Part shown: one piece after another, positions 3,625 to 27,724 of the stretch
Layout of the letters: each line of letters opens with the position of its first letter
How positions within the stretch are numbered: position 1 is the first letter of the stretch
Source of the DNA: Amphibalanus amphitrite
Lineage: Eukaryota > Arthropoda > Thecostraca > Balanomorpha > Balanidae
Direction of reading: 5' to 3'
Length of the DNA stretch: 64,000 nt
Assembly: GCF_019059575.1 (NCBI RefSeq)
Contig: NW_024883490.1
Location: 17,778-81,777, forward strand
Position numbers and translations under genes: made by a program
The notes under the pieces: generated by a model
What the model saw: the letters and a program-made list of their open reading frames with translations, nothing else
The model's database searches: none
Told to the model about the DNA's origin: nothing

Positions 3625-3825
3625 ATGCGGGCTGCATCAATGTCACCAAAAGGACCAAAGTGGTCTCTGGAGGGCTCCGCTGACAGCGACGGGGAATGGG
3701 GTCCGTCACGGAGTGTGAGGAAGTCTCAGAGGCCGAGGAACTGCACTCCCATAGACAGTGGCTCTGAGAGCGACTTTCGGCCAGTTGTGAAAGAGGAGAT
3801 AAAGATTGAAGTCACTTCACCAAGG
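3625..3825 (+). CDS. PRDM9: PRDM9-like exon 1 (first recognised coding exon)
   Basis: ATG at 3625 is the first in-frame ATG after the in-frame TGA at 3568-3570, and the donor (AGG|GTACGT) ends the exon in phase 0 at 3825. The peptide starts MRAASMSPKGPKWS. It includes a serine/acidic stretch (GSADSDGEW), a basic patch (RKSQRPR) and a VKEEIKIEV tail that fits the SUMO acceptor pattern. The frame is open a further 54 bases upstream (from 3571), so a spliced upstream coding exon entering near 3576 is possible. I cannot decide between a true start and an internal exon. No domain is recognisable, which is usual for the segment between KRAB and SET. Confidence 0.6.
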
Positions 3826-6800
3826 GTACGTGTTCAAATACAAGGTGCTCACCTCTCATTGGTTTTTAGCTGCGAGGTTAATAAAAGGGAATGACAGCGC
3901 ATAATGTGTTCCAATTTGTATATCTGTGGAGGATAAACATCTTATGTTTCATTTAATATTGTTCGTCTGTTGATCCGGTCTAGGTTGAGCGGCCGTCGTC
4001 TCCCTCGGTGTCGGACGACGATCCTTTGTCGGACCACGCTCTGCATTCTTTAGTGAAGGAGGAAAAGTACCGACCTCGATCACCGTCACCGTCTGAGGAC
4101 TTCATCGGGTTTACTGAGGTGGACCGGGACAGGTTAGGGCATGATTCAGTGCTGTTGTTGAAATTTTAGTTGTTATTTGACATAGTAAACAATGACATAT
4201 TATCCTTGATGAATTCTAATAATATTTGCATTTGTCTGTTCTTTCAGTGCCTGTTTCATCTCCAATGCAAAAAGGAGTCTGTTACTTGGTTGTTCGTCTG
4301 CCATTCGAGACTCTACTGAAGGTAAGTTTATATATGTGAAGAGACTGTAAGCAATGGGTTTATCGTGATATCCTCGGTCTTACTTTTGTGCCCTTTTCAG
4401 AGAAAATGTAAGTTTTATTTTTATTTTTGGTTTCGTACTCTACAAAGTGATTGAATGGCATTATCGAACCATTCTTATGTTCAATTGCATGCACTCTATT
4501 GAACTGACGCGTTACCGAAATGCCACCGAATGATTTATTACCCTGTTGAATTTATTGCAGTTTTTGCTGAAGGAGTGTTCATCAAGAGTCAACGTCTCGT
4601 CATAAACTACCGAGATGTGGACGGTCTCGATGATAGTAACATATGTGAGTATTCTCTCGATTTTAGTCAGCTACCTTGTCCTCATCAACGGACGAATGTA
4701 CACGATAAGCACTCATATTGCAGACAAATTAAACCGAATACAGACGCATTGTTTCCGTCTAACGGAACCTTGAACGATTAAACCTTGGTCTGCTCTTCAT
4801 CAAATCGCTAATAATTTTTTCGCCCTTCTTTCTGACAGTTTGTGACGTGTGCTGCCGCGATTGGGACGGTGAATGTCCCGTCCATGGACCGCTCAAGATC
4901 ATACACGATACCAAGGTAAGACTGGTCCATACTGGTCTGATTCGTATTCTTTACACATGACTCCTCTCACATTTAGACATTAAATAATATGACCAATTGT
5001 GCCTGATGCCCTAGTGACGGAACGACATGAGCTTCATGTAAAAATGATCTATTTCTTTCACATTTACGTAATCCTCTTCCTCATAGCATGGATGAAGTAT
5101 TTACTCTAATCCATGCTCATAGTTATATTATTGCTTTGCTTCTGTCTTGTTAGCAGGTAATACTGTCATGGGTACGTGGTCAAGAACAGGTTCATGATCT
5201 ATATCCACAAAACATACGCGTCTGATTTACAAACAGGCTTAAGATAATCTCAATGCATTGATTGTATTGTCGACATTGCGCCCCACATGCGCTGAACATT
5301 CCAGGCACGACCCGGTATCGGAGATGTCGACAGGGACGTCAAGACTCTCCCGCCTTCTCTCAGCTCTGGTCCGTCGACAAATCCAGCGTCTGGCACCGGT
5401 AAGTTAATGAGGCAAGACAAATGGCGATACGTAACAACTGCTGCTGGACGTTTGATTTGATGCATCATTTGGTGATGGTTGCTTGTGTTGTATGATTTCA
5501 TGTCCCATGTATCAGTACATGTTGTGTCCATTTAGTTGAGGTGAAGGCTTGTATTTATTTGATTCCAGGAGTTTTGGCGGAGAAGGACATACCTGCGCGC
5601 CAAAGACTCGGTCCTTACGAGGGCACCTTGACCACCGAGCAGGGTCAGGCCCGAAGTCGAACAACCGGGTACAGATGGCAGGTCAGTTCAGTTGTTTTGT
5701 TTTGCAGGTAAAAAACGCATATTTTCACTTTAGACTTACTTCAACGATAAAAGCTATTAAAGGTAGATTATGACCTTTTCCCACTTTATTGGAGTTGGGA
5801 CCATTTTTTAGTAGAAGATGTATAGATATAATGAAAATTCATTGCATTTTGCCGAAAGCACAAAATTACCATGTTTTTTAAGTTGAAGTAGCTCAAGCGC
5901 TCCGCGCTTGGTAGTGATGGGTGAGCAAGTACTTGCAGGTTTAAGTAAAATCGGTGTGTAAAAATAAATCAATATTTGAAATTTTTAGTACCACTAAAAT
6001 TACTCAGTATGTCAAAAGATTCTTTTGATATATTGATGCAAATACATTACCTTTCTTAGAATACGAGTGGGTCGAAATACATGTGTACCGGATGACATAA
6101 ATTTCGTAGCTGCGTTCCATCTGATTTGAATGGCCACAATAACGCACGGCTATGGGAATAACGCGTCATTGTTTGAAACAAAAACGCCGCACACTGCGAC
6201 TTTTTGAAAGAGAAGGACACAGCATTTCAGTGGGTTTTGCAAGTACTGCAAATACTGCTTTTTTTGTAGAAATAAAAACAGCTTTCACATACGAAAATGT
6301 GCCAGAAATGTTTTTATCTTTTTAATAAACTGCGGTAAAAATAACATGAAGGTCGAATAATTTTTATTTAAGAAAAATGAAAGCTCATTATCTCCCTTTA
6401 GAAAACATCAGGGGCGCCGCCACGGATTTTTGACTGGGGGGGACGGACTGACCGACTGAAAACCCAAAAGTAGACATTCTTACCGTGGCTTTTTTCGGTC
6501 GGATGCATTCAACGTTTAAAGCAAATATGCCACTTTTAACATAGGGTTTTGAACTGAAGTAGCAGTTTTGTAGCTTGAGCTGAGACGAGAACAAATCAGG
6601 AGCTCTTATGACCCAACGATCGCCCTAGCCAAATATATCGGTATCGATTTTAGGTTTGAAGACTGACGTCATTCCCATAGATTACACTTTGTCATTCTCT
6701 TACCGAGGAATCCATTCCCTTACGGAAAAATGCTAGCCAATCAGCATTCAGCTGGTTTGAGTTACGTACTATGCTTGGTCAACGCGTGATCAGCTTCCGC

Positions 6801-9800
6801 TGCAATATAGGTAAGTAGCCTCTACGAAAGATGGAAAAGTGATGTAAAAATAAATATAAAATCCATTTGCAAATATTCATTATTGCCTGACCATTTTAAG
6901 TTTAAAAACTCATAAAACTGTGGCAAAACAACTGGTTTGAGGAAAGTAGTTTAGGTACATAGGTGTCGATTTCTACCGAGTTTGGGGTGCCCGGGCGCAG
7001 CAAATCCGCCGCCGCCCGAGCGGTGACCTTGACCCGCACGGTCTGTTGAGGCTCCAAAGCCAAGCCGGCCGAGCCGGCGGGGAATTTGGAGAGCTCGGGC
7101 ACCCCCGACTTGGCGGAAATGGACACCCATGTTTAGGTATTTCCTTAAAGTAATGGCTATAGACCGCATTCCCACCGAGTACCTACCTATACACATCTGA
7201 TGTCCGATTCAGTTTCACGGCAAAGCCTCGTGTTCTATCACGGTATAATTGCTGATGTATGCCACTAATATGATCGATAATGCATATTACATAGGTAATG
7301 CATATTGCATACCCGCGTGGGGGAGGGGGCGTTGTATAGTCACAAATATCTCTTTTTGGGTTGTGCACGAATCGGCGCGAAGCGCCGCGAAAATTGGCAA
7401 AAAAAAAACATTAGGCAAAACTGCTCCAAAATACGAATTTTGCAGCCCGTGTAACAAGCTTGATACCAGAAAACCTTAGGTCAGGAAAACCAAATCAAGT
7501 AGTCAAGTCGCCTCAAAGTTTTGTGGTCCTGTCAACCGTAGGTATAGCTTATTTCTTAGAAGCTGGAAATTTAGTGTAGCGTGACTGCAGAAGTGTGGGG
7601 TCGGAGCCGGAATCAGTCGGAGTTGACTGTTTTGACCAGTTTTGGCTAGAGTCGGAGTTGAAGTCTTCGAAAATGTTTGGATTTTGACTTCGAGGTCGGA
7701 ATGGATTGGTGTAAAGTCATGCTCTTGGCTAGTTAGACGAAATATATTAGGCCCGTGTTCGGCCAGTCGTGTTATACGACACACGTTGATCACGATATCA
7801 AAAATCGGCAGTTCCGCGATGACAGGTCGGAAAAGAGCTGGAGATTTTGTTGGCCGAGGTGGCAGGGGTCAGACCAATGCATCCAGCTTCCCTTTCTGCT
7901 CTACACAAGACGTGAATGAGTGAAAAGCCACGTTTATTGTGGACCTTATTTGAATACCTCTGAATCTGAATCTGAATCTGCATGTAGGCCCACACCCCAT
8001 ATACTGAGTACCTATCTAAACCTCCTGGACCCTCTCAGATTCGGCACCGGCCGTTCCATCTCTTCCATCCTCAGGACAGTCAAATCCTTCTCCTCCACGC
8101 CGCAACCCCTGCTCCAGGCTGGACGGACAACTCTATCCCATGCGGGAATGGCTCCACTGGAGCTATAGTCCTTTGCTGGGTGCAGTGAGTGCCAGTGGGC
8201 TGCAGGCTGCCTGTTCAATTGGTCGGGTTCATCCCAAGCGGCTCACTGGGGTGGCTGCCCCGACCAATGTCTCCCACTAATTCTTTCATACTTGCGGCTC
8301 TGAAATGGTCTCATTGGACCGAAGCGCCTAATCAAATTTCGAGTAGGATAACAACCAGTAAAACGCCTTTTGGGGCGACCAACGGAGCGAGCGAGAGGGT
8401 GGGGTGGGCCTTGCACGTGCGAAATTGCGAGGGGATACCTCCAACTAACTTGTGCACTGCACTCTGCTAACCGGTCCCTAACGATGTGCCAAATTTGAGC
8501 GCAATCGGCCCAGCCGTTCTCGAGATCTGGAAGCGGCACCCTGCACGTGCGCACGTGCAAAATGGGTCCCAACTGACTTTTGCACGGCACCCTACTAACC
8601 GGTCCCTAACCATGTATCAGATTTCAGTACAATCGGTTCAGCCGTTCTCGAGATCTGGAATCGACCCCTGCATGTGCGCACGTGCAGCAGCACCCCAACT
8701 GTGGCACATGGATATGCATTGCCTAGTGGGTATACCTACCTACATGCCAACTTTCAGCGCAATGGCGGCCCAGTAGTTGCCGAGATATTGAAATTGCTAC
8801 AACACTGACACCTCTTCGTTTTTCACGTGGCACGTGCATATGGGGTCACTCACATGCATCGGGAATAGTCCGATGCTCGTTAGCTACCCTACAAAAATTA
8901 CCGCATGTAAGTCGATCAAGTGGTTGCTGAGATATAAGCCTAGCAAAAGCGTGACCACGGCATACTCAGAAATTTCCGTTAACCTACGAACGACTATACG
9001 CTCGCTTCGCTCGCTCCGTAATGAGTTTGGGGGGGACGTCCCCCTTCCATTCTGTGAGTGGGGGGGACGCGTCCCCCCCGTCCCCCCCGGTGGCGGCGCC
9101 CATGGAAAACATGTTAGACCAATGTTAGCAACATGTAAATTTTATAATGTTTTCATTGCACATGCCATATTTTTACTTTGTTCTTTGATATGATGAACTA
9201 CGTTTTTGTTTGCTACCACAGATCAAGAAGGATAAGCGCGTGCATCACTCGGTGAATGCCGAAGACCCGAGCTGCAGCAACTGGCTCAGAAGGGTCAACT
9301 GTGCCCGCTCGGAGGAAGAACAAAACATAGTGGCCTTCCAGTACCGGGGCCAGGTATACTTCAGGTGCGTTGTTGTCTTGGAATCCACGGATCTATTCTT
9401 CCTAACTGCATTACGTATTTTATGCGCGGTTTGTCCTGTGGCCCCTATTTTTCTTTAATGGATTCGTCGAAGTTATTAATGACTGTGTAAGTGTTGTGAC
9501 TACACCAATCAAGCTTTCATCAATAATGCTATATTTATCTCCCTATGCAGGACGTCAAAGCCCGTTCCGCGGGGCTCTGAGCTGCTGGTGTACTACGCAG
9601 ACGACTCGGCCCGGGAACTGACCGTCCACTCGGAGACGTCTGAGAAGTCTGTGACTTCCTCTCCGGCCGGACCTTCATCTTCAGGTCAGTTCATCGTTTG
9701 CGGCTCCGAGAGCTATGGTGTCCATCGAAGTGACGCTGGTAATGCCATTTACCCTTCTGCCGACAGTAGACTGTTTTTTGCCCGGTTCGTTGAGAAGTTC

Positions 9801-12800
9801 TGCTACTTTGACGTATGCAGGCACGACGTTTATATGCCAACTTACATCGGCTCGGTTCGTAACTTGAACTGGCATTTCGGCTTGCGACCTAACCGGGTTA
9901 GGTCGTTCTATGCTAAAGCAGCTCGCATAATGCGACCTGCTTTGGCATGGAACGTTTTTTTAATGGCCTTTCTTCTTTCTGTGTATTCTTCAGGAATCAG
10001 TGGCTCGGTCCAATGTCCCCAATGCGGCTTCAGATGTTTGGGAAAACATTGTCTGGACGGACACGTGAAGAGAAGTCACGGTCATATGGGCAGGAACGGC
10101 AGCTTGAAGTGCGAGTGGTGTCAATACTCGACCGACAGGTCCGACTGTATGAAAAACCACCGCAGAACTCACACAGGGGAACGGCCATAGGCTGCTCCAT
10201 TTGCAAGGCACGGTTCTCTAGGCGGTCAGGTCTCACCGATCACATGCGGACCCACACTGGGGAGCGGCCATACGGCTGCTCTATCTGTACGGCCCGGTTC
10301 ACTGAACGGTCCACCCTCACCAGACACGTGCGAACCCACACTGGGGAGCGGCCATACGGCTGCTCTATCTGTACGGCACGGTACACCAAACCGTCCGCCC
10401 TCACTATACACATGCGGACTCACACTGGGGAGCGGCCGTATGGCTGCTCCATCTGCACTGCACGGTTCTCTGTTCGAGCAAGCCTAAACAACCACATGCG
10501 GATTCACACTAGGGAGCGGCCATACGGCTGCTCCATCTGCAAGGAACGGTTCACTGAACGGTCAAATCTCACCAGACACATGCGGACCCACACTGGGGAG
10601 CGGCCATACGGCTGCTCCATCTGCAAGGCACGATTTACTCTACGAGGAAGTCTCACCATGCACATTCGGACCCACACTGGGGAGCGGCCGCACGGGTGTT
10701 CACATTGCCAGGCTCGGTTCGCTAGGCGGGGAGATCTCAACAAACACATACGTACCCACACTGGGGAGCGGCCGTACGGCTGCTCCATCTGCAAGGCACG
10801 GTTCACTCGACGGTCACACCTCACCAGACACCTGCGAACCCACACTGGGGATCGGTCGTACGGGTGCTCCATCTGCCATGCACGGTTCACTCGACGGTCT
10901 TACCTCGATACGCACATGTTTTTCGATACGCACATGTGCAGCTGTTTTTTTTTTTCAAAGAACGCAATATGATTGGTGAACGCGTAATATCCTCCGCCAC
11001 CATCTTTAGTCCCAACGGAAGATACAATATAATTCTTCGTATACCTGTTATAAGTAAAAAATCATAAACATGTTTTTTAATCGGCATCATTTTTGTCATA
11101 AAATAATCATTAAACTGTAGCAAGAAAAAATATATATTTGGGAGTGGTATATATCCTTAAAGGACTGCTGAGGGGAACGATTTTACCTTTTAAAATGATT
11201 TTGAATAGTTGACGGCCGATGGGTAGGGAAGATTGGGGCAGATAGTGTCACGGGGCACATCCTGTCAGCAGGGTTTTCTCGAAAACTATCGAGCGCATTT
11301 ATGTTGTTGAAGTTAAAAGGTTTGTTTTTGCTTGACAAAGTCCGGTACTATCAATACAACAACGTGCCGGTGACCAGGCTGTAGTCACTGGCATACCTGT
11401 AACGTGTTCGTTTTTCGTGATGTCATCGTGTGAATTTGCCCTTTTTATGAGGTACCCAATCTCTTTAATTACTTAATTGTTTTGGGATATTGCGTAATAT
11501 TCAGGATCAGTCTAACGGAACAAGATTTCAATGTCTAAAACTATCAAATAGATGCAGTTTTTTTTTACTCCCGAAGAAGTTTACACCATGACGTCAGCAT
11601 TCTCTCGTAACGCCTCTTTACGTTTCGCAAAAGTCTCTTTGAAGTCTCGTGACGTCTCTTTACGTTTGCAACGGAAATCCAAACTTTTTGACAAGAACAA
11701 AACGCTAGTTCATGACTGTACAGGTAGCGCGATGGTGGCATTGAGTACCGTTTCGGGTAGTCTTGAATGTCAACATTTTTTTCTGAACATATTGTCCATA
11801 TTGTCGAAGTTTTCAATAAGAACCACAACATTTTTATTGACATCGAGTGGGGCACATCATGTTACTCAATCCGAAATCCAGCCCATCTGTTCAGCATTGT
11901 TGGAATTTATGCAAGCTGCTGCATTTTGAGGAGCTGCATCAAAAACCTGGGGGTGTTGAGCCATCCAGCATCCTTGCGTTTGGGGACATTACATTTCATA
12001 GGGTGTTGCGGCACCTATGCCTTTGTGGGCGTTCAATTTTCATCTGTGTCAGCCAACCGATCTTGTCCATTACGTGTTTATCGCCGTCGCAAGTTTATCG
12101 GCTGGTGACTGTTAATTCCACCACCGCTACTCGACGTCTCTTTACGTCGTGACCGCATGTCAGGCATCGGTCAGTACCTTCAGTGGCTCTCAAACTTCTT
12201 TGTCCAGATGCGGACGGCACAGCTGGCGCCCTAATCCTGCTTCACCGACAACTAACGCATCGCTACTATGGAAGCGATGCATGTCCTTCATTTTTTTTTT
12301 ATATTGAGTATCACACAGGATGAAATCATTTTTGCCTGATTTTTCATATTTGGCCAGGAACATTGTCGACATCGCTCTTCTCTCAATGTCTTTCACAGGT
12401 GTTGGTCGCACACTTCAGTGTCCCTACTGCGACGTCAGATGTCTGGGACAACAACATCTGGACGGACACGTGAAGATAAGACACGGTCACATCGGCAGGA
12501 ACGGGAGATTCAAGTGCGAGCGGTGTCAATACTCAACTGACAAGTCCGCCCGTATGAAACACCACCGCATGACTCACACGGGAGAGCGACCCCACTGCTG
12601 CTCTATCTGTACGGCACGGTTCGTTCAACGGGCACACCTAAACACACACATGCGGACCCACACGGGGGAGCGGCCGTTCGGCTGCTCCATTTGCCCGGCA
12701 CGGTTCGCTGACCTTTCATCGCGTATCGGACACATGCGTACCCACAGTGGGGAGAGGCCATACGGCTGCTCCATCTGCCCGGCACGGTTCACTGTTCGAT

Positions 12801-13234
12801 CAAGCCTCAACATACACATGCGGACCCACACTGGGGAGCGGCCGCACGGTTGCTCTATCTGCAAGGCACGGTTCTTTGAACGGTCACATCTTACTGCACA
12901 CATGCGGACCCACACTGGGGAGCGGCCGTTCGGCTGCTCCATCTGCACGGCACGGTTCACTGAACGGTCTACCCTAACAAAACACATGCGCACCCACACA
13001 GGGGAGCGGCCGTACGGCTGCTCCATCTGCCCGGCACGGTTCACTCAGCGGGTTAAGGCCACCGCACACTATCCATTCGGCCGGTTCATTCGGTCGTCAC
13101 AGCGGCGATTTTCTCGCGCAAGTGTCTATATCGGCCGAATGGCCGAATCGCTTAGAGCAGAAATATCGTCGTTGAAATATCGCCTAAACTGTTGTAACCG
13201 AATTCCAAGAGCGCAAGTAATGAATGTTTTATAA
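3625..13234 (+). CDS. PRDM9: PRDM9-like histone methyltransferase gene (N-terminal region, knuckle, PR/SET, C2H2 array), gene-level span
   Basis: Exons join in consistent phases: 3625-3825, 3984-4132, 4248-4321, 4561-4644, 4839-4915, 5305-5398, 5569-5681, 9222-9364, 9551-9684, then zinc-finger exon B from 12399. The product would be about 634 residues. It contains a C-x2-C/C-x2-H knuckle (C171, C174, C182, H185) and a SET domain (about 196-340) with LPPSL, GPYEG, NWLRRVNCAR, EEEQN, VAFQYRGQ and ELLVYY, then C2H2 fingers. This order and these motifs are specific to PRDM9/PRDM7. In vertebrates PRDM9 trimethylates H3K4 and H3K36 at sites chosen by its fingers and sets meiotic recombination hotspots; that role here is inference. 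Joining exon A instead meets a stop at 10188. No KRAB exon is visible, so the N-terminus may be incomplete. PRDM9 is the best call; another PRDM protein is unlikely because of the knuckle. Confidence 0.82.
3984..4132 (+). CDS. PRDM9: PRDM9-like exon 2
   Basis: Acceptor CCGGTCTAG ends at 3983 and the donor follows GACAG at 4132, leaving phase 2. It encodes a serine-rich acidic segment (PSSPSVSDDDPLSD) with a second VKEEKY motif that fits the SUMO pattern, then PRSPSPSEDF. Low complexity; supported mainly by clean splice sites and by the open frame linking exons 1 and 3. Confidence 0.7.
4248..4321 (+). CDS. PRDM9: PRDM9-like exon 3
   Basis: A strong acceptor (TGTCTGTTCTTTCAG) precedes 4248 and the donor GGTAAGT follows 4321. 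The peptide is about 25 residues (SACFISNAKRSLLLG, then a short tail) and carries no known motif. The frame is open and the phases (2 in, 1 out) match both neighbours. Confidence 0.7.
4561..4644 (+). CDS. PRDM9: PRDM9-like exon 4, segment just before the zinc knuckle
   Basis: Acceptor ATTTATTGCAG ends at 4560 and the donor ATAT|GTGAGT follows 4644 (phase 1 in, 1 out). It encodes VFAEGVFIKSQRLVI and then NYRDVDGLDDSNI. The second part aligns in position and character with the short stretch between the SSXRD motif and the knuckle of vertebrate PRDM9 (a Y-[KR]-[DE]-V core followed by an acidic run). Confidence 0.75.
4839..4915 (+). CDS. PRDM9: PRDM9-like exon 5, pre-SET zinc knuckle
   Basis: Acceptor TTTCTGACAG ends at 4838 and the donor CCAAG|GTAAGA follows 4915 (phase 0 out). 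It encodes FCDVCCRDWDGECPVHGP and then LKIIHDTK. The C-x2-C ... C-x2-H arrangement followed directly by GP is the zinc knuckle that precedes the SET domain in PRDM9 and PRDM7. It is the best single marker that this is PRDM9 and not another PRDM family member. Confidence 0.88.
5305..5398 (+). CDS. PRDM9: PRDM9-like exon 6, start of SET domain
   Basis: Acceptor GAACATTCCAG ends at 5304 and the donor ACCG|GTAAGT follows 5398 (phase 1). It encodes ARPGIGDVDRDVKTL and then PPSLSSGPS. The LPPSL..GPS motif corresponds to the LPPGL..GPS motif at the start of the PRDM9 SET domain. Confidence 0.85.
5569..5681 (+). CDS. PRDM9: PRDM9-like exon 7, SET domain (GPYEG)
   Basis: Acceptor TTTGATTCCAG ends at 5568 and the donor GGCAG|GTCAGT follows 5681 (phase 0). 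It encodes GVLAEKDIPARQRL, then GPYEGTLTTEQ and TTGYRWQ. GPYEG and the GY-x-W motif are conserved SET positions in PRDM9. The following intron is 3.5 kb, but only about 200 bp of it is not transposon. Confidence 0.88.
5761..6397 (+). mobile_element. TTAA element (family A), diverged copy 1, in the SET intron
   Basis: TTAA at 5757-5760 precedes AGGTAGATTATGACC; the right end CTCATTATCTCCCT stops at 6397 and is followed by TTAG, a mutated target copy. The ends match the full family copies at 28488-30498 and 50214-56391. It is 637 bp against about 1,015 bp for those copies (insertions removed), so it is internally deleted or an older subfamily. Confidence 0.75.
6409..9104. mobile_element. 2.7-kb hAT-type non-autonomous element in the SET intron
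   Basis: Termini CAGGGGCGCCGCCAC and GTGGCGGCGCCCATG are inverted repeats, flanked by an exact 8-bp duplication GAAAACAT (6401-6408 and 9105-9112), the hAT hallmark. No transposase is recognisable inside. Contents: a GC-rich near-palindromic segment at about 6990-7110, a (TCTGAA)n stretch near 7961-7980, the tandem repeat at 8436-8800, and G7/C7-rich terminal blocks at 9030-9090. Confidence 0.85.
8436..8800 (+). repeat. Tandem repeat, about 129-bp period, inside the intronic hAT
   Basis: Three imperfect units start near 8442, 8571 and 8697. Shared landmarks are AACTAACTTGTGCAC or AACTGACTTTTGCAC, CTAACCGGTCCCTAAC, CAGCCGTTCTCGAGATCTGG and GTGCGCACGTGCA. Units 1 and 2 are clearly alike; unit 3 is degenerate. 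Confidence 0.7.
9222..9364 (+). CDS. PRDM9: PRDM9-like exon 8, SET domain core
   Basis: Acceptor TTTGCTACCACAG ends at 9221 and the donor TTCAG|GTGCGT follows 9364 (phase 2). It encodes CSNWLRRVNCARSEEEQNIV and then AFQYRGQVYF. The NW-x-R-x-VNCAR-x2-EEQN block and the VAFQY block are the most diagnostic stretch of the PRDM9 SET domain, contributing to cofactor and substrate binding in the characterised vertebrate enzymes. No residue that would obviously abolish the fold is missing. Confidence 0.92.
9551..9684 (+). CDS. PRDM9: PRDM9-like exon 9, end of SET domain and linker
   Basis: Acceptor CTCCCTATGCAG ends at 9550 and the donor TCTTCAG|GTCAGT follows 9684 (phase 1). It encodes RTSKPVPRGSELLVYYADDS, then a serine/threonine-rich linker. 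ELLVYY holds the tyrosine pair (Y326-Y327) at the place of the catalytic tyrosine of the PRDM9 SET domain (LLVWY in mammals). The next 309 bp contain no stop in this frame and are a multiple of three, so retention of that intron would also be readable. Confidence 0.88.
9994..10972 (+). pseudogene. PRDM9: Zinc-finger terminal exon A (11 C2H2 fingers, frameshifted after finger 2, 3' end truncated)
   Basis: The acceptor (GTGTATTCTTCAG, phase 1) fits exon 9. Fingers 1 and 2 (QCPQC..., KCEWC...) differ from the rest and are conserved in all three copies. A single base is missing at about 10189 (CCATAGG for CCATACGG), which gives TAG at 10188-10190. The remaining nine fingers read on in another frame to the TGA at 10970-10972. 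Array fingers share the frame YGCSIC-x-ARF...[10 protein letters not shown]. Their contact residues (-1, 2, 3, 6) are RSGD, ESTR, KSAI, VASN, ESNR, LGSM, RGDK, RSHR and RSYT. Finger 11 is broken by a short direct duplication (CGATACGCACATG at 10908 and 10925), and the basic tail of copies B and C is missing. It is a decayed exon, or an intact one with an assembly error; I cannot tell which. Confidence 0.82.
10973..12398 (+). other. Spacer between zinc-finger exons A and B
   Basis: No gene seen. AT-rich, with a CTCTTTACGT motif repeated at about 11612-11660 and once near 12137. The last 80 bp hold the acceptor of exon B (TCTCAATGTCTTTCACAG). Unlike the sequences upstream of A and C, which are alike (TGGCATGGAACG, ATGGCCTTTCTTCTT, GTGTATTCTTCAGG), the sequence upstream of B is diverged. 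Confidence 0.5.
12399..13234 (+). CDS. PRDM9: Zinc-finger terminal exon B, 5' part: seven intact fingers, then read-through into a Harbinger element
   Basis: It begins after TTTCACAG in phase 1, so the SET exons can splice to it in frame. Fingers 1-2 are the conserved pair (LQCPYC..., FKCERC...). Fingers 3-7 have contact residues (-1, 2, 3, 6) QAHT, DSSG, VSSI, ESHA and ESTK. Finger 8 starts YGCSICPARFTQRV and is then cut by the element inserted at 13056. The frame runs on through element sequence for 59 codons to the TAA at 13232-13234. This is the only zinc-finger exon with no frameshift up to the insertion, so a SET-plus-seven-finger protein could be made from it. The inserted terminus would supply the C-terminus (HYPFGRFIRSSQRRFSRAS and onward), and a new polyadenylation site would be required. 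Confidence 0.8.
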
Positions 13235-13587
13235 TGAATATTGGAAAAGACCAAATATAATCCAGCTTCATATATTTAGTGCATCGTTCAAAAAAGAAAC
13301 AAAATTATAGGTTAATTGCAGTTTGAGTAGGTAGCTTGCTTGATAATGAAAACAAATTGGCTGTTAAAAACATTGAACAAAGTACACCGACTATTGAGGT
13401 CTAAATGGTCTGAGCATATCGCAAGCGATTAACCAAACTTAGCAACATTAATGTGCATTGTATTGATGCTCTGGGACCAAAAGATTTAGTTATCTGCATG
13501 CTGAGCCACCAAACAACCCGTACACACTTCAACTAGCCATCGCGATACTGTACTTCAAGCTGGCACTCCAGAGGGTGCAGGAGAGAC

Positions 13588-14103
13588 GCAGACCCTTGGT
13601 CCGGCGCATGGGGTCAGCGACGTGCTGCAGCGCCGAGACGAGCTGGGCGAGCACGCCAACCGAGAGCAGGAGCTTCGGCTCAACGACCCCCAGCGACACA
13701 GGTTCAGTATTTCCGACTGAGCTAGGGAGCCTTCAGCCTCCTGCTAGCACAGATCGAGGGCCAGATCGCCCGCTCGACCACCACCTTCCTCCAGCCGGTG
13801 AGCGCACCGTTGCGGCTGGCGATTACACCCCACTATCTGGCGTCGGGGGCTGAATTTTCCGCTCTGGCGCCGAGCTACCGGCTCGCGGAGTCGACCACGC
13901 GCGCGTTGGTGTACATCTGTTGCGCGATCGTGAACGTCTGCGGTGCAGTGTACCTGCCGGAGCCGACGGAGGAGACGTTGCGCGGCAGTGAGCGGAAGTT
14001 CCGGGAGCGATGGCTTTTTTCGAACCGCTTTTACACACTGACCGAAAGCCAGGTCGGCATCATTCAACGGTTTAGCCACCTGTTGTACACTTTGAACTTT
14101 TGA
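13588..14103 (+). pseudogene. HARBI1-like (PIF/Harbinger) transposase relic
   Basis: The + strand reads DVLQRRDELGEH...PQRHRFSIS, then after a stop QIEGQIARSTTTFLQP, RLAITPHYLASG, SYRLAESTTRALVY and SERKFRERW. RLAIT-x2-YLASG followed by a short helix-turn-helix-like segment and F-x-E-x-W is the conserved region just before the DDE core of HARBI1-type nucleases. In-frame stops are present at about 13720 and at 14101, and the DDE core itself is not seen, so it is dead. It agrees with the TTA target duplication of the element that carries it. The start is approximate. Confidence 0.7.
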
Positions 14104-15327
14104 AGTGCTGCGAGCGTTTCGACTGGGCACGGCTGCTCCTTGCGGACACTGGTGATGCCGGCACCGACCGCTCCAGAGACGGGGCTGGCCCGAGCGCCGG
14201 CCTTGGAGCTGGTGCTGCTTGCCGGGGCGCCGGCCCCGGGGACAGAGCTGGTGCGCCGGCCGTTTGCGGTTCAGCTGGTGCCTCATCGTCCAGGAAGACT
14301 CGTGTTTCATGAAACTGGCTTGTTGTGTACCGCTTGAATGAGATCCACTTCTCCGACCCAACTGAAAACATAGGGACTTTGTTAATTTTGAACGCCACCT
14401 GTTGTGCTGCTGGGCCCACGACCCGCGTCATCGTTTTAGCCCGAGTCATCCATCCTCTTGGGTCCAGCCCACCTCGAGTGAGGCCACTGCAATGGCGTGT
14501 TTATAGGTATATTGGTAATGACACTCGGTGCACCCTCCACACCAGCTGAGCCGACAGTAGATGTCGCCTCTGCTGCCTGCTGGGAGACGCGCGCGCCATC
14601 TAAAGGCGGGTTGGTGGAACAGCTATCAAAGGTCCGCTCATCACACTGAAATGTGTACAACTGTACACAAAGGTCGATCTGCACTGGTTGGAGTGGACAC
14701 ATCTACCTGGTTCATTGACCCGGCAGAGAAGAAAACTATCACTATTGTGAAAGATCTCTGGGGAATAAATGATACACAAAACAGTATTGAATGGTGAATA
14801 GCTACTACAGAAGGGACAGGTGGCTATTTTTATATTTGTTCAGTGCCATTACATTTTATTTAACATAAAATGAGCTCCTGTACAGAGCAGACAAAAACAC
14901 ACAAAAAAACACATTCAGCATGCTGATCTCACAACTCTTTCAATGCAAATATTGCATGCAAGTGTTTGTGTGCATCCCATAAAGCCTCCAGACTTTTCTT
15001 TCATGGCCCTACGTTTGACACATCCAACATCTTGATCTGGCAGAAACACAGAAAAAGGAAAAATACTCTGAAAAATGGAATTTCTATTATAGTTTGACAA
15101 CTCAGATTTTGAATTATGGCACTTCTTGTACCATAAGAAAGAGTTGTGCTCAACACTTTCACCAACCATGCAATAAAGTACCTACATATCTAATATCAGT
15201 TGGGCAAACTAGACCTTTGGAATCAAAATATGGAGGCATCAAAAGATTGATTCCTTTTGGGCATAAATGCAGACCATTTCTAACTTACCAATCACATAAA
15301 AATAAGAGAGTGTTTCAAAAAGGAGCA

Positions 15328-17158
15328 CAGTCGGGGAAACTGTGGTAAAATCTTGCCATTTTTAGCAGTCTGCTATTTTTAGCAGAAATCTGCTAAAAAT
15401 GGGTACGGACCTGCTAAAAATGGGTACGCACGTGACGTCATCGTACCCAAATATAGCAGATTTGGGTACGGACCCATACAAAAACAGATTTGCGCACTAC
15501 TTGAAGCAAATGCGCATCAAATGCCTGGCAGATTCATGATGAGAATAGTGCTGAGAGTGTCCTCTTCTATTTTCTTTCAGATCCGACTATTTTTTAATAA
15601 GATATTGCCATTGGAAGATGAATGCACTGAAATTTCCTAGAAATTGGTCATTGTTTTAGGTATTTTATGTTTCTTCTATTAAGAATAGACAGAAAATAAT
15701 GTTGAAAACAAAATCTAGCAAAAAAATACATAAGGTTGAGATTCATTACTAGAACAGGCCATCACTATAACAAACACAATTTGGCATGATTGGTTGACAC
15801 ACATGTTATCAAGGTCATACCATTGAAGGGGTAAATAGCTATGTAGGCATATTTTAATAGTTAATTTAGCCGTTTATGTGGTTTTTTAAGATGACCCTGG
15901 CCACAGTGTTTCTTATAATGGTAAATTTGGCACATAGCATTGCCTGGTTTTGTTCAAACAGCAGCTTATACCCTGCTGGATTTTGGCACGACTTTTCAAC
16001 CTTAATGGTTAGGATGTCATTTTAGTGGTTTAATAATCCATTTTGGTTAAAAATGTTACCTCCATCTTATTCTCCAGACTTTAAAGTGTATGTAATGACC
16101 AGCTATTTTGAGTGAAGACAATTCTTTTTTGGGAAATGAGTAGAAGTTTGGCACAGCCTAGCAGTCAAACACGTCAGGCTGCAGGCTGGTGGTCAATTAT
16201 TTACTATTTTTTTCACATGTTTTGTTCCTCAAGATGACTATTATTTTCAAAAATCAACATCAAATTGCCAAACCTTAAACATTGGTGTGGGTGTGTGTTT
16301 ATTTGTTGATCATTATCATTGCATACTGATTGCGTGACCAGATGAATATTGAATGTTGCATGGTGTGAGTCTACCACAGATCTTACGAGGGCCATATGGG
16401 TAATCGGGCTTCACGGTTTAAGAACCTGATGCTATTTCTGTATGTGTCTGCATGCTTTTGCCTGTTTGAAATGCATACTGTCTCAGTCTTGTCTGGACGT
16501 ACTAGGACTTAGTAAACTTTGGTATGTGAGGTTCATGATGACACGTATTGCAGTAATCAGACTGTTTTCAAGAAGCCTTCCACACTTTTGAATGCTGTAA
16601 AAAGCTCTCTCTCCCTCGCTCTCTCTCTCTCTCTGTCTCTGTCTCTGTCTGTCTCTGTCTCTGTTTCTGTTTCTGTCTCTGTCTCTGTTTCAGCCTGGTC
16701 AACTGTGCCATTGCCTTAAGATGGTGCTGCTAGGCAACAGTGTACTGCCTCCTCTGGTGGATGGAGTGGGCGTGGGGTGCCAAAGCTCAGTTATACATGT
16801 ACATTTCACCATTAATCAATAGATACATAGATATATCTTCTGCTATTTTTAGCAGATGCAGCTGCTAAAAATAGCAGTTCTAATAATATTTGGGGCTTCC
16901 TGAATCAGCAAGATTTACAGCATTGTTCCATAAAGTTTTTAGGCAAATGATAGGTTCATTTGAAAATGTGAGAATTGTAGTATAGAAATTGCATGCAAAA
17001 TAGTGTGTTTCTGAGTGAAAGATGAATGTTTGACCAGTTTTCAAACAGTACTTTTTACCGTACCCATTTTTAGCAGATTCGTACCCATTTTAAGCAGAAT
17101 TCTGCTAAAAATAGCAGACTGCTAAAAATGGCAGATTTTACCATAGTTTCCCCGACTG
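15328..17158. mobile_element. 1.8-kb DNA element with 4-bp duplication, nested innermost
   Basis: Termini CAGTCGGGGAAACT and AGTTTCCCCGACTG are exact inverted repeats, flanked by AGCA at 15324-15327 and 17159-17162. Inside each end are repeated TTTTTAGCAG/CTGCTAAAAA motifs (15358-15420 and 17065-17135), which also recur near 16842-16880. No transposase is recognised; superfamily unassigned. Confidence 0.8.
16604..16692 (+). repeat. CT/TCTG-rich microsatellite
   Basis: Pure CT dinucleotides from about 16604 pass into CTGTCT and TCTGTT hexamer-like repeats up to about 16692. Low-complexity tract within the innermost element. Confidence 0.9.
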
Positions 17159-18768
17159 AGCATGCCTGATCTTGAACAGAAATGCTCGAACTATCTCCTA
17201 AGCAAAATAATATTGCTCCTATCATAACAATTTGAATTATATAGGTAGTGAAAGGCAATCAAGGAATTGATTCACTTTAAACAGATAATCATAATATTGA
17301 TTCCTCATCAGCTGGCTAATCATTATTTTGATTCACAGGTAATGTTAACAGATAGGCAACAATGACTTGCAAGAATACAGCATTTATCTCGCTATTATTC
17401 TCATTTAGTGGTATCCTCAGCACCAGAACTGATACCTATAGCATTGTTGTACTTTACCTTCACTACATTTGATAACAATTCACAATTTTTAAATGTCAAG
17501 AATACAAAAACTGAAGCAACAGGTAAAAACCATATAAATAATATAAAAGCACTACAACAATGATAATTAGGGGTTTAAAAATTTCATTTTGCCATTTTAC
17601 ACAAATACTGATTGGTTAGTATGTGATTCATGATACCAAAATAACATACAGTGTGATTTCCTCAAAACAGCTTTTACCTGATGGACAGTGGCTCTGTCTT
17701 TTTCCCATTCACAAAGCCAAAGGGACAATTTCTCAGCTTTGAGGTAACACTTTTTGCAAGCCTACCACATTTTTCTACCTTTTAAAAGAAAAATCTCACC
17801 GTCATGGGCCTTTTTTCAACCGTAACGATTCATTTGAAGTCAAAAGTGTACCCAAATGAATCAAAAAATTGATTCCATGCCCATATTTGGTCATGGCTCC
17901 TCCCACCAGAATCAAATTATTGATGCCTCTATATTTTGATTCCAAAAGTCTAGTTTGCCCAACTGATATGTGACACATTAGTGCGACAGTAGCCTGTTGG
18001 AGGCAATGTGAATGAAATGATAAATGAAAACCCAGATTGCATGGTAAGAACATTATATAAGAACATTACAGGTACTTTCAATGACTTTGACTTGCAGGGT
18101 TTGAATTTTGATTAAATAATTTAAGAATAGCTCCTTGAAACCTAGAACAATTGTGTCCAGCATTTCAAGTTACTGGCAAAAGCAGAAAATATTTGCTTAT
18201 ATGGATAATAAATGGCCATTTTCCAAGAATACCTACTGTGGCATTGAGTAGTAGACAAATTTATGCCCACTGACTATGTATAATCATGGCAAATGGAGAA
18301 AATGGGGAAATGGAAATTGAAATTGAAATGAATAGTGGATCAGAGATGGTTGAAAGTTGAAACCAATATTTAAACAACATTTCAATCTGAATCACATATG
18401 CAATTGACAAAATACACAACACAGATATTCATTCGAATACTTACTTCATTTCCATCGCAAACAACTCCACACCACACGAGCCCCTCACATGATTGGAATG
18501 TAAACAACACTTGTCAAGGTTGTATGAAAACAATATGGCGGCTGTTGATTTTCGGCCGCTAAATGACTGCTTCGGCGAGAAAAGTTCAACCGGTCGAACT
18601 TTTTTTCGGTCGTCGCGTGAACATCGCTTGGGCCGAATGCCTGAATAATATGAGCCGAATGCACCGTCGTTGGTTCGTTGTTTCGGCCGATATAAAGACT
18701 CGCGCGAGAAAATCGCTGCTGTAACGGCCGAATGAACCGGCCGAATGGCTAGTGTGCGGTGGCCTTTA

Positions 18769-18950
18769 CTCTCACTCAACACATGCGGACCCACACGGGG
18801 GAGCGGCCGTACGGCTGCTCACACTGCCAGGCCCGGTTCACTCAACGGGCATATCTCTTCAGACACATGCGGACCCACGCGAAGAGCGGCCACACGGTTG
18901 CCTCTACATCAGCAACGGTTCGGCAGTTTGACACAAAAAATACGTTTTAA
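18769..18950 (+). pseudogene. PRDM9: Zinc-finger exon B, 3' part: rest of finger 8, finger 9 and C-terminal tail
   Basis: This continues exon B after the Harbinger element. It reads [13 protein letters not shown], then finger 9 ([10 protein letters not shown], contacts QAYR), then a basic tail ([17 protein letters not shown]) and TAA at 18948-18950. The CSHC last finger and the tail are shared with exon C (KTGRTAATTLTVR), so they are the ancestral C-terminus. It is disconnected from its promoter-side half by 5.7 kb. It could rejoin only if the element were excised or spliced out. Confidence 0.82.
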
Positions 18951-19809
18951 AGTGGTTGGTTCACTGGTGAGAATAACAAGCTGTGAGTGACCGAAGCGGT
19001 AAATCGTTTGAATGTCGAAACACAGTGCTGAGGCTTCACGACAAGTGCATGACCAGCCCCCGTTGTACGTTAGTTATTCGTGTTATAGCTCTGACTCTCG
19101 TTTGTGAGCTTCGTGGCTACCAGTGTCATATCTGGTTTGTTTGTACTTATCCGGTGTGATTCAGTGGTTCTGTATTTAATAAGCCGCCCTTACATAGGAG
19201 GAAAGGACTGTGGAACTGTCGTTATTTTAAGCGCCGTAGCGCCATTTTAACCCATTAATGCCGCTTGGGTCATGTATGACCCAAAAGCAAAATCTTAATG
19301 TTTCTTCTCAATGGAGGCAAGTGGCACTTTGATGAACTTGCGCGTGTGTTTTGTCGATTTTGTGGGTTTAGTGACGACAGTCGGAGCGGCATAAAACTGG
19401 TGTGAGCTCGTCCACTGAAGTTTCTGGAGCCAAAGACGACGGGACTGCACAGCCGCCGGTCACTGACAATGGCGCGCCGTCCCAAAAAGTAATGTTGTAT
19501 TATGTTTGCAATTTACTATCTGTTGAATGATCGTCTACCTATTTAAATTTGTCTGAAAAAGTATGACATGTATTTTTGCCCTTCTTCTCGTCACCGGATA
19601 ACTTTTGTTCCTCAATAAATATCCTTGGGTCATAAATGACCCAGCCGGCAATAGTGTTATCAATTTACTCAGTACCTATGTTAAATACAATGGAAGCAAC
19701 TGATGATTATACGATTATTTATTTCTGGGGGTTGTGATCAGATCACAGTGGCGGATCCGAAGGAGGGGATCCGCACATCACATGGGTCACTCATGACCCC
19801 CCCCTTGGG

Positions 19810-20435
19810 GCCCGGGGCACCACCGACCTATCAGTAGCACCACAGGCCTGACAGGGGCACCACAAGCCTAGCAAGGGCACCACGGGCCTGTCAGGGGTAC
19901 CACTGCACAGGCTTGTTAGGGGAACCACATGCCTGCAGGAGCACCATCGGCCTAGCAAGGACACCACAGACCTGCCCGAGGCACCAGATGCCTGCCAGGG
20001 GCACCATCGGCCTACCAGGGGCACCATCGGCCTCGCAGAGGCATCACCGGCCTCACAGGGGCACCACCAGCCTCGCAGGGACACCTTGGGCCTGTAAAGG
20101 GCTCCACGGGCCTGTTGGGAGCACTTCAGGCTTGTCAGGGGCACCACAGTCATGCCAGGACCGAGGGGCACCAGCGGCCTAGCAGGGGCACCACAGGCCC
20201 GCCAGGGGCACCACAGGCCTGCCAGGGGCATCACAGGCCTAGCAATGGCACCGCGGACCTGTCAGGGTCTCAAAAAGCCTGTCAGGGGCACCTCAGGCTT
20301 GTCAGGGCCCAGGGGCACCACAGTCCTTCCAGGGACACCATAGGCCTGTCTGGCCTATGGTGTCCCTGACAGTGTCAGGGGCACCAGAAGCCTAGCAGGG
20401 GCGCCACAGGCCTGCCAGCGGCACCACCAGCCTCG
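19810..20435 (+). repeat. 20-bp minisatellite, about 31 units
   Basis: Degenerate tandem units of the form GGGGCACCACAGGCCTGCCA. The same unit in opposite orientation forms the array at 32,075-32,960. The left edge here is preceded by GTGGCGGATCCGAAGG (19749), a hAT-type terminus also found at the edges of the other array, so a hAT-derived carrier is likely. Short open frames through it are by-products of a period that is not a multiple of three. Confidence 0.9.
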
Positions 20436-20477
20436 CCAATGAGACGTCGCAAAGCATTGCAATGCAGTGCGTCTTAA

Positions 20478-21369
20478 CCCTCGCCCATGTAGGGGGGGGG
20501 GGGTTGGTGCAACCCCCCCCCCCTGAGGTTTTTCTTAGCTACACGCCGAACCGTTTCAGATAGCATCCTTTGCGCGACTTTTGGTAAAAAAATTTTTTGT
20601 CAAGGTCATGTCAGGTCACGGAGTTATGACTTCATAAAGGGAACAACCTCCGGCCAGATTTACGCTAAATTGGAGATTGCTTCACAATGGTATAAATGCC
20701 GACTGACCTGATACACTGATGGATTGTTTTAGAATCATAACTGGCTGATTTGACATTGGCACAAAGTCCGTTGACCTTTTCAAGGTTACTAAAGGTCAAG
20801 GTCAGGTCAGTGGCCTCGGTTGACCTGTAATGACTTCTTGCACTTGTATGCCTTTTCGGGGTATTTTGATGCCCTGAATTCGAATTTGCTATCCATTTCA
20901 GGCATAGTCGGTTGTTTCTTGTAGTTCATTTTGGGTCAGGGTCAGGTCAGTGACGTCACACGCCTGACGTGACCCAATGCACAAATGACCTTGCAGACTT
21001 CCGATGCTCCCAACGCATAATTTTTAGAGTTATGACATCGAAATACACACCAAACGATAGAGAATTGATCAAGGATCACGATAGTGAAGGTTTCAAGTCG
21101 ATATCTCTTACCGTTTTGCCGCAATCGGCGCGAAAATCTGAAAAAGTTAGATTTTTCCGAAAATTTGACCTTTGACCGGTCATAAGTAGGTCAAATGTTG
21201 ACCTAGGACCAAAAAATATACCACCAATCGCGAGATCTCGTTGAGAGCAATCCGTTAGTCTTTTCCGCTAAGCTCTACGACGCTTCGTTTTCAAACGCCA
21301 GGGGGGGGGTCGCACCAACCCCCCCCCCTGCATGGGCGAAGGTGGCAAAACACCGTTTACGGGCGAGGG
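20478..21369. mobile_element. TTAA element with G-run/C-run terminal hairpins (family G), copy 1
   Basis: TTAA at 20474-20477 and 21370-21373; termini CCCTCGCCCATG and its inverse GGGCGAGGG. At the left a run of 12 G, the loop TTGGTGCAA and 11 C form a hairpin; at the right a similar G9/C9 pair sits next to TGCATGGGCG. CCCT after TTAA agrees with piggyBac ends. The interior is rich in AGGTCA/TGACCT. No coding. Confidence 0.8.
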
Positions 21370-22031
21370 TTAATATTGATTGGCTGAGACCGCCATACAG
21401 TAGGAATACACTTATTCAGTATACACAATAAGGTATCTAGATAAATCAGTTTTCGTGATAACTCCCATTTGTGACTATACTAATGCCGGTTGGGTCATTT
21501 ATGGCCCATGCCTATAACTTGAGAACCGATGGAACAGTTTTTTAAAGCTTTCACAGTTTTTTTTTACTGGGACCCATGTGGCAAACATTTGTTAAGGATA
21601 ACTTGAGAATCAAAAAATAAAAATTCCGGCATCAATGGGTTATATCGAAATAATGTTTCTCTGTACGGCTTTGGCTCCCTCCAGTATTTGCAGCATTCCG
21701 CATTATGTGCGCAGTCTTTGTCGACAGGGCGCCGGTCTAACGTAGGTTGGCATGTTGTGTAAATCTTTATACTCTGTTCATCCCGTGTACATAAAGGCGG
21801 CTACTGTTGCTATGTGCTGTCTGTACCTACAACTTTACAAGCTTGACGGGGTGTTTCTGTCGTGTCGCCCTCGGCAGATTATGTGACACCTAAGGCATTG
21901 TTTGCATTGCTCTATTGAAGAATGTACTGATACTTCCTAAGGACACTGGACACATGTCTACTAACCAATACCTACTAACTGTGTCTTAGTGTTATGGTGT
22001 TCATGTTGAAGCACATATATTGCCATGTTCG

Positions 22032-22037
22032 AATAAA
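22032..22037 (+). promoter_or_regulatory. Polyadenylation signal AATAAA, copy B
   Basis: AATAAA lies at the end of the conserved 3' flank (ATTGCCATG, then GAATAAACGC). The paralogous position in copy C (31221) keeps the same hexamer and context, which supports function. Confidence 0.65.
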
Positions 22038-22050
22038 CGCGTGTATAACA

Positions 22051-22641
22051 ATTTTCGGCTTTTTTAAGTTTTATTACTTGTTCAACGCGTGTTTTTCTCG
22101 CTATTTATTTGTATTGCTTTTGTATTAAAATGTAAAGAAAATATTTAATGCAACTTTGTGTATCATGTATATTTTATTTTGGTCGTGGTGTGGAATACGG
22201 GAGGCGTGCCTGCCACGGTGGAGTTTTCCCAAATAGAGACATTCCTTAGAGAGAAAAATTGATTGTGTTTTGTCCTCTCTTTATCTTTCAAATTTTTATT
22301 CCTTGGTGTTGTCAAATAGGCCCTTCACTTTATGGTTAAGTTGGGTCGGATTTCTGACCCTGTGATATAGTTAATAAAGGGCAAGTGAACTATTCTGTAC
22401 GAGCTCAGCGTTCCCTTTCTGATGGCTGTATTTCGAACGACAAACGGATCAACTCATGGAAAGCTGATGGCTTGTCGCGTCAACATTGCCGCTACCGTCC
22501 ACGGCGACCACCAAGGTGACCTGGAAACGCGACCACCAGCTGCTTGGGTCTTCTCTCGGCGTCGTGATTGTTCCAGTGTGTGTGCGACCTGTTGGCATGG
22601 AACGTTTTTAATGGCCTTTCTTCTTCTTGTGTATTCTTCAG
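22051..22641 (+). other. Spacer and intron end before zinc-finger exon C
   Basis: No gene seen. The last 55 bp (TGGCATGGAACG, ATGGCCTTTCTTCTT, GTGTATTCTTCAG) are almost identical to the intron end before exon A, so the duplicated unit included intronic sequence and its acceptor. The frame into exon C is open for about 73 codons upstream of the acceptor. Confidence 0.6.
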
Positions 22642-23451
22642 GCATCAGTGGCTCGGTCATATGTCCCCACTGCGACTTCCGATGTCTGGGACAACAACAT
22701 CTGGACGAACACGTGAAGAGATGTCACCGTGACATCGACAGGAACGGGAGGTTCAAGTGCGAGCGGTGTCGGTACTCGACCGACAGGTCCACATGCATAA
22801 AACGTCACCGCAAGACTCACTGGGGTGCGGTCGCACTGCTGCTTCATCTGTACGGCGCGGTTCACATGCCGGTCACACCTTACCAGACACATGCGTACCC
22901 ACACTGGTGAGCATCCGTACGGCTGCTTCATCTGCAAGGCACGGTTCACTCAGCGGTCCAACCTCAGCAGACACATGATGACTCACACTGGGGAGCGACC
23001 GTTCGGCTGCTCCATCTGCACGGTACGGTTCGCTGAACGGTCTACCCTAACAAAACACATGCGTACCCACACTGGGGAGCGACCGTTCGGCTGCTCCATC
23101 TGCACGGTACGGTTCGCTCAACAGTCACACCTTACCGAACACATGCGGACTCACACGGGGGAACGGCCGTACGGCTGCTCCATCTGTCAGGCGCGGTTTG
23201 CTCTACGGGGAAGTTTAATCAGGCACATGCGGACCCACACTGGGGAGAGGCCGTACGGCTGCTCCATCTGCAAGGCACGCTTCACTCAAGGGCCAAGTCT
23301 CACCTCACACATGCGTACCCACACGGGGAGCGGCCGTACGGCTGCTCACACTGCCAGGCTCGGTTCGCTCAACGAGCCAAAGCTTATCAGACACATGCGG
23401 ACCCACACGAAGACTGGCCGTACTGCTGCCACTACTCTAACGGTTCGGTAG
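22642..23451 (+). pseudogene. PRDM9: Zinc-finger terminal exon C (9 C2H2 fingers, frameshifted after finger 2)
   Basis: Acceptor GTGTATTCTTCAG is in phase 1 as in A and B. Fingers 1-2 (ICPHC..., FKCERC...) are the conserved pair. The linker after finger 2 reads ACTCACTGGGGTGCGG where two bases are missing, so fingers 3-9 continue in another frame. Contact residues (-1, 2, 3, 6) of fingers 3-8 are CSHR, QSNR, ESTK, QSHE, LGSR and QPSS. A 1-nt loss near 23323 (CACGGGGAGCGG) is compensated by an extra base near 23372, so only the stretch between is scrambled; finger 9 there would have contacts close to QAKR. Tail KTGRTAATTLTVR ends at TAG 23449-23451. It is probably a pseudo-exon, or useful only by a product that skips fingers 1-2. 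Confidence 0.82.
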
Positions 23452-26160: not shown

Positions 26161-26579
26161 TAGTTGTGTTTTAAACGCCTCCATATAGGAGTTAAGGAGT
26201 GTCGCTGTTTGGTACAGCGTCGTAGCGCTGTAATTTGTGAAGAGTATCCGGCTACATTGAGTGACAATGCCTCTTCTTTTTTTTTGTTACGACTCACTCT
26301 CGCATTCGTGGCATTTCGTATGTTCTGCGCAGCCTTTGTCGACAAGGCGTAGGTTAAAAGTAGATCGGCGTGGCATGTAAATCTACAACTATCTACAGTG
26401 GCGGATCTACGTTGGGGCAAAATGGGCAATTGCCCCCCCTAAACGGAAAACCTCTGGGCAAACATATCTTTTTGCCCCCCCCCTAAAAAAACTACAACTT
26501 GAATACTAAAAATATGGTGTTTGAAAAGAAAATGTGAAATAAATGGAGGACTAGAAGGTTGTCATATTCGTGATATTAA

Positions 26580-27408: not shown

Positions 27409-27724
27409 TTAAGTTGTGAGCTGATAAAAAGTCCTCCGCCCCATGAATGTCATTCCATCATCCATCAGCAGTGCTACTACTGCTACTGCTACCAAAAAAA
27501 AAAAAAGATAACGCGATTTATTGAAACCTTGAAACAAGTAAACAAACCGTCAACAGCAGACCGCCAGACGCCAGTGGGGTGTGGGGTCAGGGGTCACCAC
27601 ACTGGTGAGCGGTTGGACAGTGGTGAGTTTGCATGGGTATATAAGAAGTGTTTGCATAATATTTTATTGCTAGATAGCATGGGCGTAGGAGCTGAAAAAT
27701 ATTGGTGGGTCTAAATATCCAATA

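Follow-up and report, generated by a model that had tools for sequence, protein, structure and literature searches.

A damaged unit of a barnacle family of PRDM9-type SET genes with probable alternative zinc-finger endings

The 64,000-nucleotide stretch of Amphibalanus amphitrite DNA analysed here (the window) contains a gene in which a PRDM9-type SET module is followed by three terminal zinc-finger exons, and this layout is no local oddity, being repeated dozens of times in the genome. We propose, with a probability of roughly 70%, that these are PRDM9-type SET genes with alternative zinc-finger endings of the kind known from mod(mdg4) and lola, and that the window holds a damaged unit of the family. 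A unit consists of a single SET module, which closes with a phase-1 donor, and of several self-contained terminal exons behind it; each of these has an acceptor and a finger array of its own and opens with the same two special fingers. The shared donor would most likely be cis-spliced to one terminal exon per transcript, which would yield several DNA specificities for one methylase module, and both units and arrays turn over fast through duplication, exchange and point change at DNA-contact codons.

The gene lies on the + strand of the window, and its coding exons have good splice sites up to 9684. The features of the SET module are as follows.

3569..3825 (start approximate, donor 3826), + strand: e2, putative upstream coding exon, from an open frame and a donor, with a weak C276 homologue (E 0.009)
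3984..4132, + strand: e3, putative coding exon, from acceptor and donor and a C276 homologue
4248..4321, + strand: e4, putative coding exon, from acceptor and donor read in the sequence
4561..4644, + strand: e5, coding exon, from splice sites and a C276 homologue
4839..4915, + strand: e6, coding exon, zinc-knuckle region upstream of the SET domain, from splice sites and alignment with human PRDM9 chains
5305..5398, + strand: e7, coding exon, start of the PR/SET domain, from splice sites, the PRDM9 alignment and genome relatives
5569..5681, + strand: e8, SET exon with GPYEG, human Y276 position kept, from splice sites, the PRDM9 alignment and genome relatives
5762..9105, no strand: insertion of about 3.3 kb in the e8-e9 intron, missing from the other haplotype (on C2160, window 5761 and 9106 correspond to 22119/22123, almost side by side)
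9222..9364, + strand: e9, SET exon with F at the human Y341 position, from splice sites, the PRDM9 alignment and genome relatives
9551..9684, + strand: e10, SET exon, human Y357 position kept, shared phase-1 donor at 9685, from splice sites, the PRDM9 alignment and genome relatives

Among PDB chains the SET region is closest to PRDM9 (1.2e-38), with PRDM11 next (5.6e-23), and the gene matches the Pfam PR domain (PRDM2_PR) at 7.9e-37. In the alignment with human PRDM9, where we take the human residue numbers Y276, Y341 and Y357 to apply to the PDB chain, Y276 and Y357 are kept and Y341 is replaced by F, so that the gene has two tyrosines of the full triad. The same F is present in the SET module on C276. 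These three residues are the catalytic tyrosines of PRDM9 (PMC5519329). KRAB and SSXRD gave no Pfam match in the upstream exons of the window gene, the first of which is uncertain. SSXRD matched nowhere in the genome either, but its positive control likewise matched nowhere; for zf-CW, as in ZCWPW1, two genome loci exceeded the cut-off and the control matched nowhere.

Downstream of the shared donor lie the terminal exons, here called A, B and C.

9994..10918, + strand: terminal exon A, two special fingers and a TAG at 10188-10190, from frames and alignments with relatives
12399..13052, + strand: 5' portion of terminal exon B, with two special fingers and then five complete array fingers, all in frame, from frames and repeats
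13053..18766, no strand: TIR transposon of 5.7 kb inside the sixth array finger of B, from its inverted ends, missing from C2160
18767..19109, + strand: 3' portion of terminal exon B (a further finger and the tail) with its 3' flank, continuous with B on C2160 26916-27250
22642..23451, + strand: terminal exon C, two special fingers, a 2-bp deletion at about 22818 and an array in another frame, from frames and alignment with relatives

The first-pass annotation of this DNA had described three terminal zinc-finger exons with acceptors of their own and of one phase, each opening with the same two special fingers, and all of this stands. The acceptors end at 9993, 12398 and 22641, all three are in phase 1 with the donor GT directly after 9684, the AG lies exactly 20 nt upstream of the first Cys codon in A, B and C, and the same two special fingers begin each exon. 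Its report of near-identical intron ends before A and C is borne out as well, since the similarity begins about 60 bp upstream of the acceptor (9931/22583) and continues onward. What does not hold is that an array follows in each exon: as assembled, none of A, B and C encodes a whole array. In A, a 1-bp deletion brings the TAG directly after the special fingers and leaves eight array fingers in another frame, and the likeness to intact relatives ends near 10918, which marks a truncated 3' end. The open frame of B continues into the insertion as far as 13234, and its array resumes at 18767, beyond the transposon. The TIR ends match in inverted orientation over 88 bp at 91% (13052-13139/18769-18682); by eye, the flanks suggest a 3-bp TTA duplication, and other inverted repeats are nested inside. 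We take the element to be PIF/Harbinger-like; translating the insert at 13140-18700 in a single frame, stops written as X, yielded no Pfam match. The window thus holds a damaged unit of its family, with A and C frameshifted and B cut by a transposon, and the earlier observation survives for the exons and acceptors but not for the idea that each exon now encodes an array. A common 3' flank of B and C reaching to an AATAAA had also been reported. About 300 bp are indeed shared (18770-19078/23298-23597, 80%), B's part sitting beyond the insertion, but the AATAAA at 19614 falls outside the shared stretch, and there is none behind C between 23451 and 24500. We therefore reject the notion that B and C end in one shared poly-A signal, as no such signal was found.

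A second haplotype of the locus is present on C2160, which is colinear with window 3866-25265, some stretches being found on one side only. Identity is 92.6-99.5% in the blocks that lie outside the finger exons, and the order is SET-A-B-C, as in the window. Both A and B are intact and open there, with 10 and 9 fingers respectively in a pattern count that includes the special fingers, and C2160 has neither the insertion in B nor that in the e8-e9 intron. Between the haplotypes the A exons are 90.2% and the B exons 88.4% identical, that is, more divergent than the flanks; for the special fingers alone, the figures are 98.3% for A and 93.1% for B. As a test of allelism, window 26000-28500 was used as a query and matched repeats only. 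The second haplotype bears on the suggestion that the copies or their frameshifts are assembly or consensus errors, which we regard as scarcely credible. It could draw on the short contig (81,777 bp) and on the deletions, each of 1-2 bp, that set A and C apart from close relatives and that could in themselves be base errors. However, copies occur on many contigs as well as on the colinear haplotype, C on C2160 carries another disrupting lesion, together with one 1-bp deletion that it shares with the window, and neither the transposon in B nor the truncated 3' end of A is a base-call error. Duplication during assembly as the source of the three copies is ruled out by the same order on the second haplotype and in other units.

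That the layout did not arise by chance is indicated by its recurrence across the genome. The window's own assembly (807.6 Mb) was searched, and haplotigs are included in all family counts, which are therefore inflated. A hand count over 150 of 176 candidates gave at least 35 e9 loci like that of the window and at least 20 of a more distant, dispersed kind, and 29 of those 35 SET modules have at least two same-strand terminal exons behind them. For 143 of the 150 special-finger exons scored out of 493 candidates, the contig carries an upstream SET module, and for the other seven it carries none. Of the 143, 134 are on the strand of that SET module, and these form 42 units of 1 to 12 exons, 33 of which contain at least two exons (one of the 33, on C171, is doubtful, with a separate SET exon there). 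The single terminal finger exon of PRDM9 is thus not the rule here: the window unit has three, and 33 of 42 units have two or more. A DNA search with the B-type exon found 11 other matches, 86-89% identical over 706-711 of 711 bases. These matches fall in 10 other units (C352, C1144, C998, C2160), in which the order SET-A-B recurs; other exons lie between A and B in the unit at C352:229k, and relatives of the C type are also spread across many units. The nearest SET module is on the opposite strand for nine of the 150 exons scored out of 493 candidates, on C192 and C276, and 8 of 12 assigned exons on C276 are at least 176 kb from theirs. Terminal-exon clusters whose SET module is on the opposite strand or more than 170 kb away are seen at C192:396918-493289, C276:295637-325527 and C276:458701-466834. 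The distant kind makes up a second, dispersed family of about 20 related SET modules on C171, C428, C152, C379, C1313 and C2492; those of its loci that could be paired by eye among the matches listed have a zinc-finger exon 0.9-3.9 kb downstream.

The state of the downstream exons is what we consider most closely, as the chief alternative is that only the first, A-type, exon is spliced and that the downstream ones are silent finger-donor cassettes for gene conversion or SET-less remnants of tandem duplication. We judge this unlikely. All 19 copies compared (16 from C276, three from the window) have the acceptor at one fixed position and in one phase, and it is found at the same place and in the same phase in 27 of 27 fetched loci (L029-L055), a figure that combines several comparisons, one of which alone gives 25 of 26 recognisable and the others the remaining two loci. 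From that acceptor, the frame stays open through five or more fingers, counting the special ones, in 25 of the 27 fetched loci (the exceptions are L040 and L049); it reaches the end of the array in 20 of the 27 and falls short in seven. Downstream exons are less often damaged, which runs against silent cassettes: 13 of 15 fetched reach the array end (L046 and L049 are damaged), compared with 7 of 12 other A-type exons, of which four end within the array (L033-L036) and one is truncated (L040). Frames of at least 180 aa are likewise more frequent among non-first than first exons (90/92 vs 34/42), by a crude measure that even the broken A of the window passes. On C276, all 16 exons have at least five fingers in an open frame, and at least three of the 16 (301082, 304255 and 499878) have extra fingers past the end of the frame. 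Such open frames are not trivial, as indels are common nearby: the intron before A has eight distinct lengths in 13 units, and in 7 of the 13 the length is not a multiple of three.

Selection on the special fingers points the same way. Their pooled dN/dS is 0.54 for A-type exons (12 sequences), 0.53 for B-type exons (six) and 0.39 for other downstream exons (nine), and the median over the exons of C276 and the window is 0.41 (168 of 171 pairs usable). Fixed acceptors together with values of 0.39-0.53 downstream are not what silent cassettes would lead one to expect. Most downstream exons have therefore kept open arrays, acceptors and purifying selection, and they are preserved no worse than first ones. 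Furthermore, the remnant of a SET module that tandem duplication might have left between A, B and C is absent from C1993 among the matches listed. Exon pairs on C276 share an acceptor-anchored match in 22 of 120 cases, spanning 27-55 bp in 15 of the 22 and 99-859 bp in the other seven; mostly short shared stretches at the acceptor are the pattern expected for terminal exons rather than for separate genes. An AATAAA occurs within 1.5 kb behind 10 of the 16 C276 exons, as a raw count set against no chance level.

In favour of silent cassettes, exchange between units does happen. The window's A exon matches the A exon of the unit at C352:157773, which is open with 12 fingers, at 98.8% identity (924 bp, one gap), and the B exons of these two units are only 89% identical. 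As the window's A is nearer to the A of another unit than to its own allele, arrays move between units. The A-type special fingers are homogeneous across units, and all three exons of the window are damaged, both of which would also suit donors that are never spliced.

An intronless copy at C150:599.6-600.7 kb (C150:598000-602500, local 1566-2660) argues further that a B-like exon has been spliced. It carries part of e8, then e9, e10 and a zinc-finger exon, with lesions, and the junction of e10 to the zinc-finger exon falls exactly at the splice sites. Compared with 44 exons, its zinc-finger exon is nearest to five B-types (76.5-78.9% over 166 bp); it is 74% identical to the window's B and 71-73% to A-types. 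Its best full-length relative in the genome is C192:590043, the second exon of its unit, and matches covering most of the exon are all at or below 74% genome-wide. There is no poly-A tail in the C150 stretch searched, and further intronless copies were not recognised with a SET-B junction peptide among 150 of 688 candidates listed. We read C150 as a decayed germ-line fossil, which shows that a SET module was once spliced to a B-like terminal exon, although the source unit may lack an A; a joining of SET to a B-like exon counts against splicing of first exons only.

The earlier suggestion that one SET module could be spliced to alternative arrays consequently fares well for the gene family, through the units, the acceptors, the open and constrained exons and C150, and less well for the window's haplotype. 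A choice among terminal exons would be made within one living locus. The opposite-strand and distant exons on C276 and C192 are poorly explained by plain cis-splicing, and trans-splicing would fit them. One may go further and suppose that every terminal exon has its own promoter and is trans-spliced to SET transcripts as at mod(mdg4). Such exons do exist, those on C276 keep their acceptors and frames of at least five fingers, and all mRNAs of Drosophila mod(mdg4) arise by trans-splicing (PMC12692577). As a general account we nonetheless find this improbable, given that co-orientation with the upstream SET, seen in 134 of the 143 exons with one (150 of 493 candidates scored), is needless for trans-splicing and that the 55 bp or less shared before the exon in 15 of 22 C276 pairs leave no common promoter close by. 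A broader version of our preferred reading, that of alternative endings chosen mainly in cis, is that loci choose among several terminal arrays and the genome among well over 100, the distant and opposite-strand ones being reached by long-range or trans-splicing. We put this forward tentatively, with the odds somewhat against it. If true, each locus would have many DNA specificities, possibly differing from cell to cell, and the targeting of hotspots or repeats could be retuned while the old specificity stays.

The arrays themselves evolve in the manner of PRDM9. Among the 19 fingers of the window, the contact codons -1, 2, 3 and 6 are the most diverse of 20475 four-codon sets, and among the 78 fingers of C276 they rank 12; the barnacle arrays thus show the rapid evolution and diverse DNA-contact positions characteristic of PRDM9. 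The likeness extends to a SET domain closest to that of PRDM9 and to an array encoded in a terminal exon. Barnacle units differ in having several terminal zinc-finger exons per SET module, with two special fingers before each array, in the replacement of Y341 by F and the lack of a detected KRAB or SSXRD in the window gene, and in their number, which runs to dozens. PRDM9 paralogues are known: a salmonid genome contains 6-14 of them, and a single exon encodes the array (PMC11703093). Rapid evolution of PRDM9 in invertebrates is also known (PMC2779102), and expression of a shrimp gene annotated as PRDM9 was seen in ovary but neither in eyestalk nor in hepatopancreas (PMC11048709). Among the open-access PMC papers listed, we found no description of several terminal finger exons behind one PRDM9-type SET.

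In lola, a common module is combined with many alternative 3' exons; the common module of both mod(mdg4) and lola is BTB, and their 3' exons carry zinc fingers. At the level of sequence, the barnacle units likewise place several alternative 3' exons, all in one phase, behind a single module, and the joining of module to 3' exon is represented by one fossil junction, that of C150 to a B-like exon. In contrast, the module here is a PRDM9-type methylase rather than BTB, most exons share the strand of their SET, and the entire unit recurs in the genome. Vertebrate KRAB zinc-finger families form large clusters in which fast-evolving C2H2 arrays are attached to a chromatin-acting module, and they differ in that the barnacle effector is a PR/SET domain common to several arrays. 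The barnacle family may be an invertebrate counterpart to these large vertebrate families of zinc-finger repressors. In Drosophila mod(mdg4), one common module is joined to many alternative 3' exons by trans-splicing (PMC12692577).

The proteins would methylate histones at sites read by the array, either in the choice of meiotic hotspots or in a chromatin marking that targets repeats, and the size of the family makes us lean slightly towards repeats. PRDM9 has mostly been studied as one gene with one array and one set of hotspots per allele. One enzyme module placed before several arrays would uncouple specificity from the enzyme and alter the arms race that is expected, and in the barnacle family one could ask whether such arrays direct recombination or mark repeats.

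Elsewhere in the window, the sequence at 1-1130 looks to the eye like the 3' end of an integrase from a BEL/Pao-type retroelement. There are 23 copies of the arthropod telomere unit TTAGG at 35211-35326, inside the contig, and the tandem repeats flanking this array (34823-34980 and 35374-35523) resemble mirror images of a single 48-bp unit. Two arrays of a 143-bp repeat with TTTGACCTTGAAG motifs lie on opposite strands at 36008-43689 and 44016-48416, over about 8 and about 4 kb.
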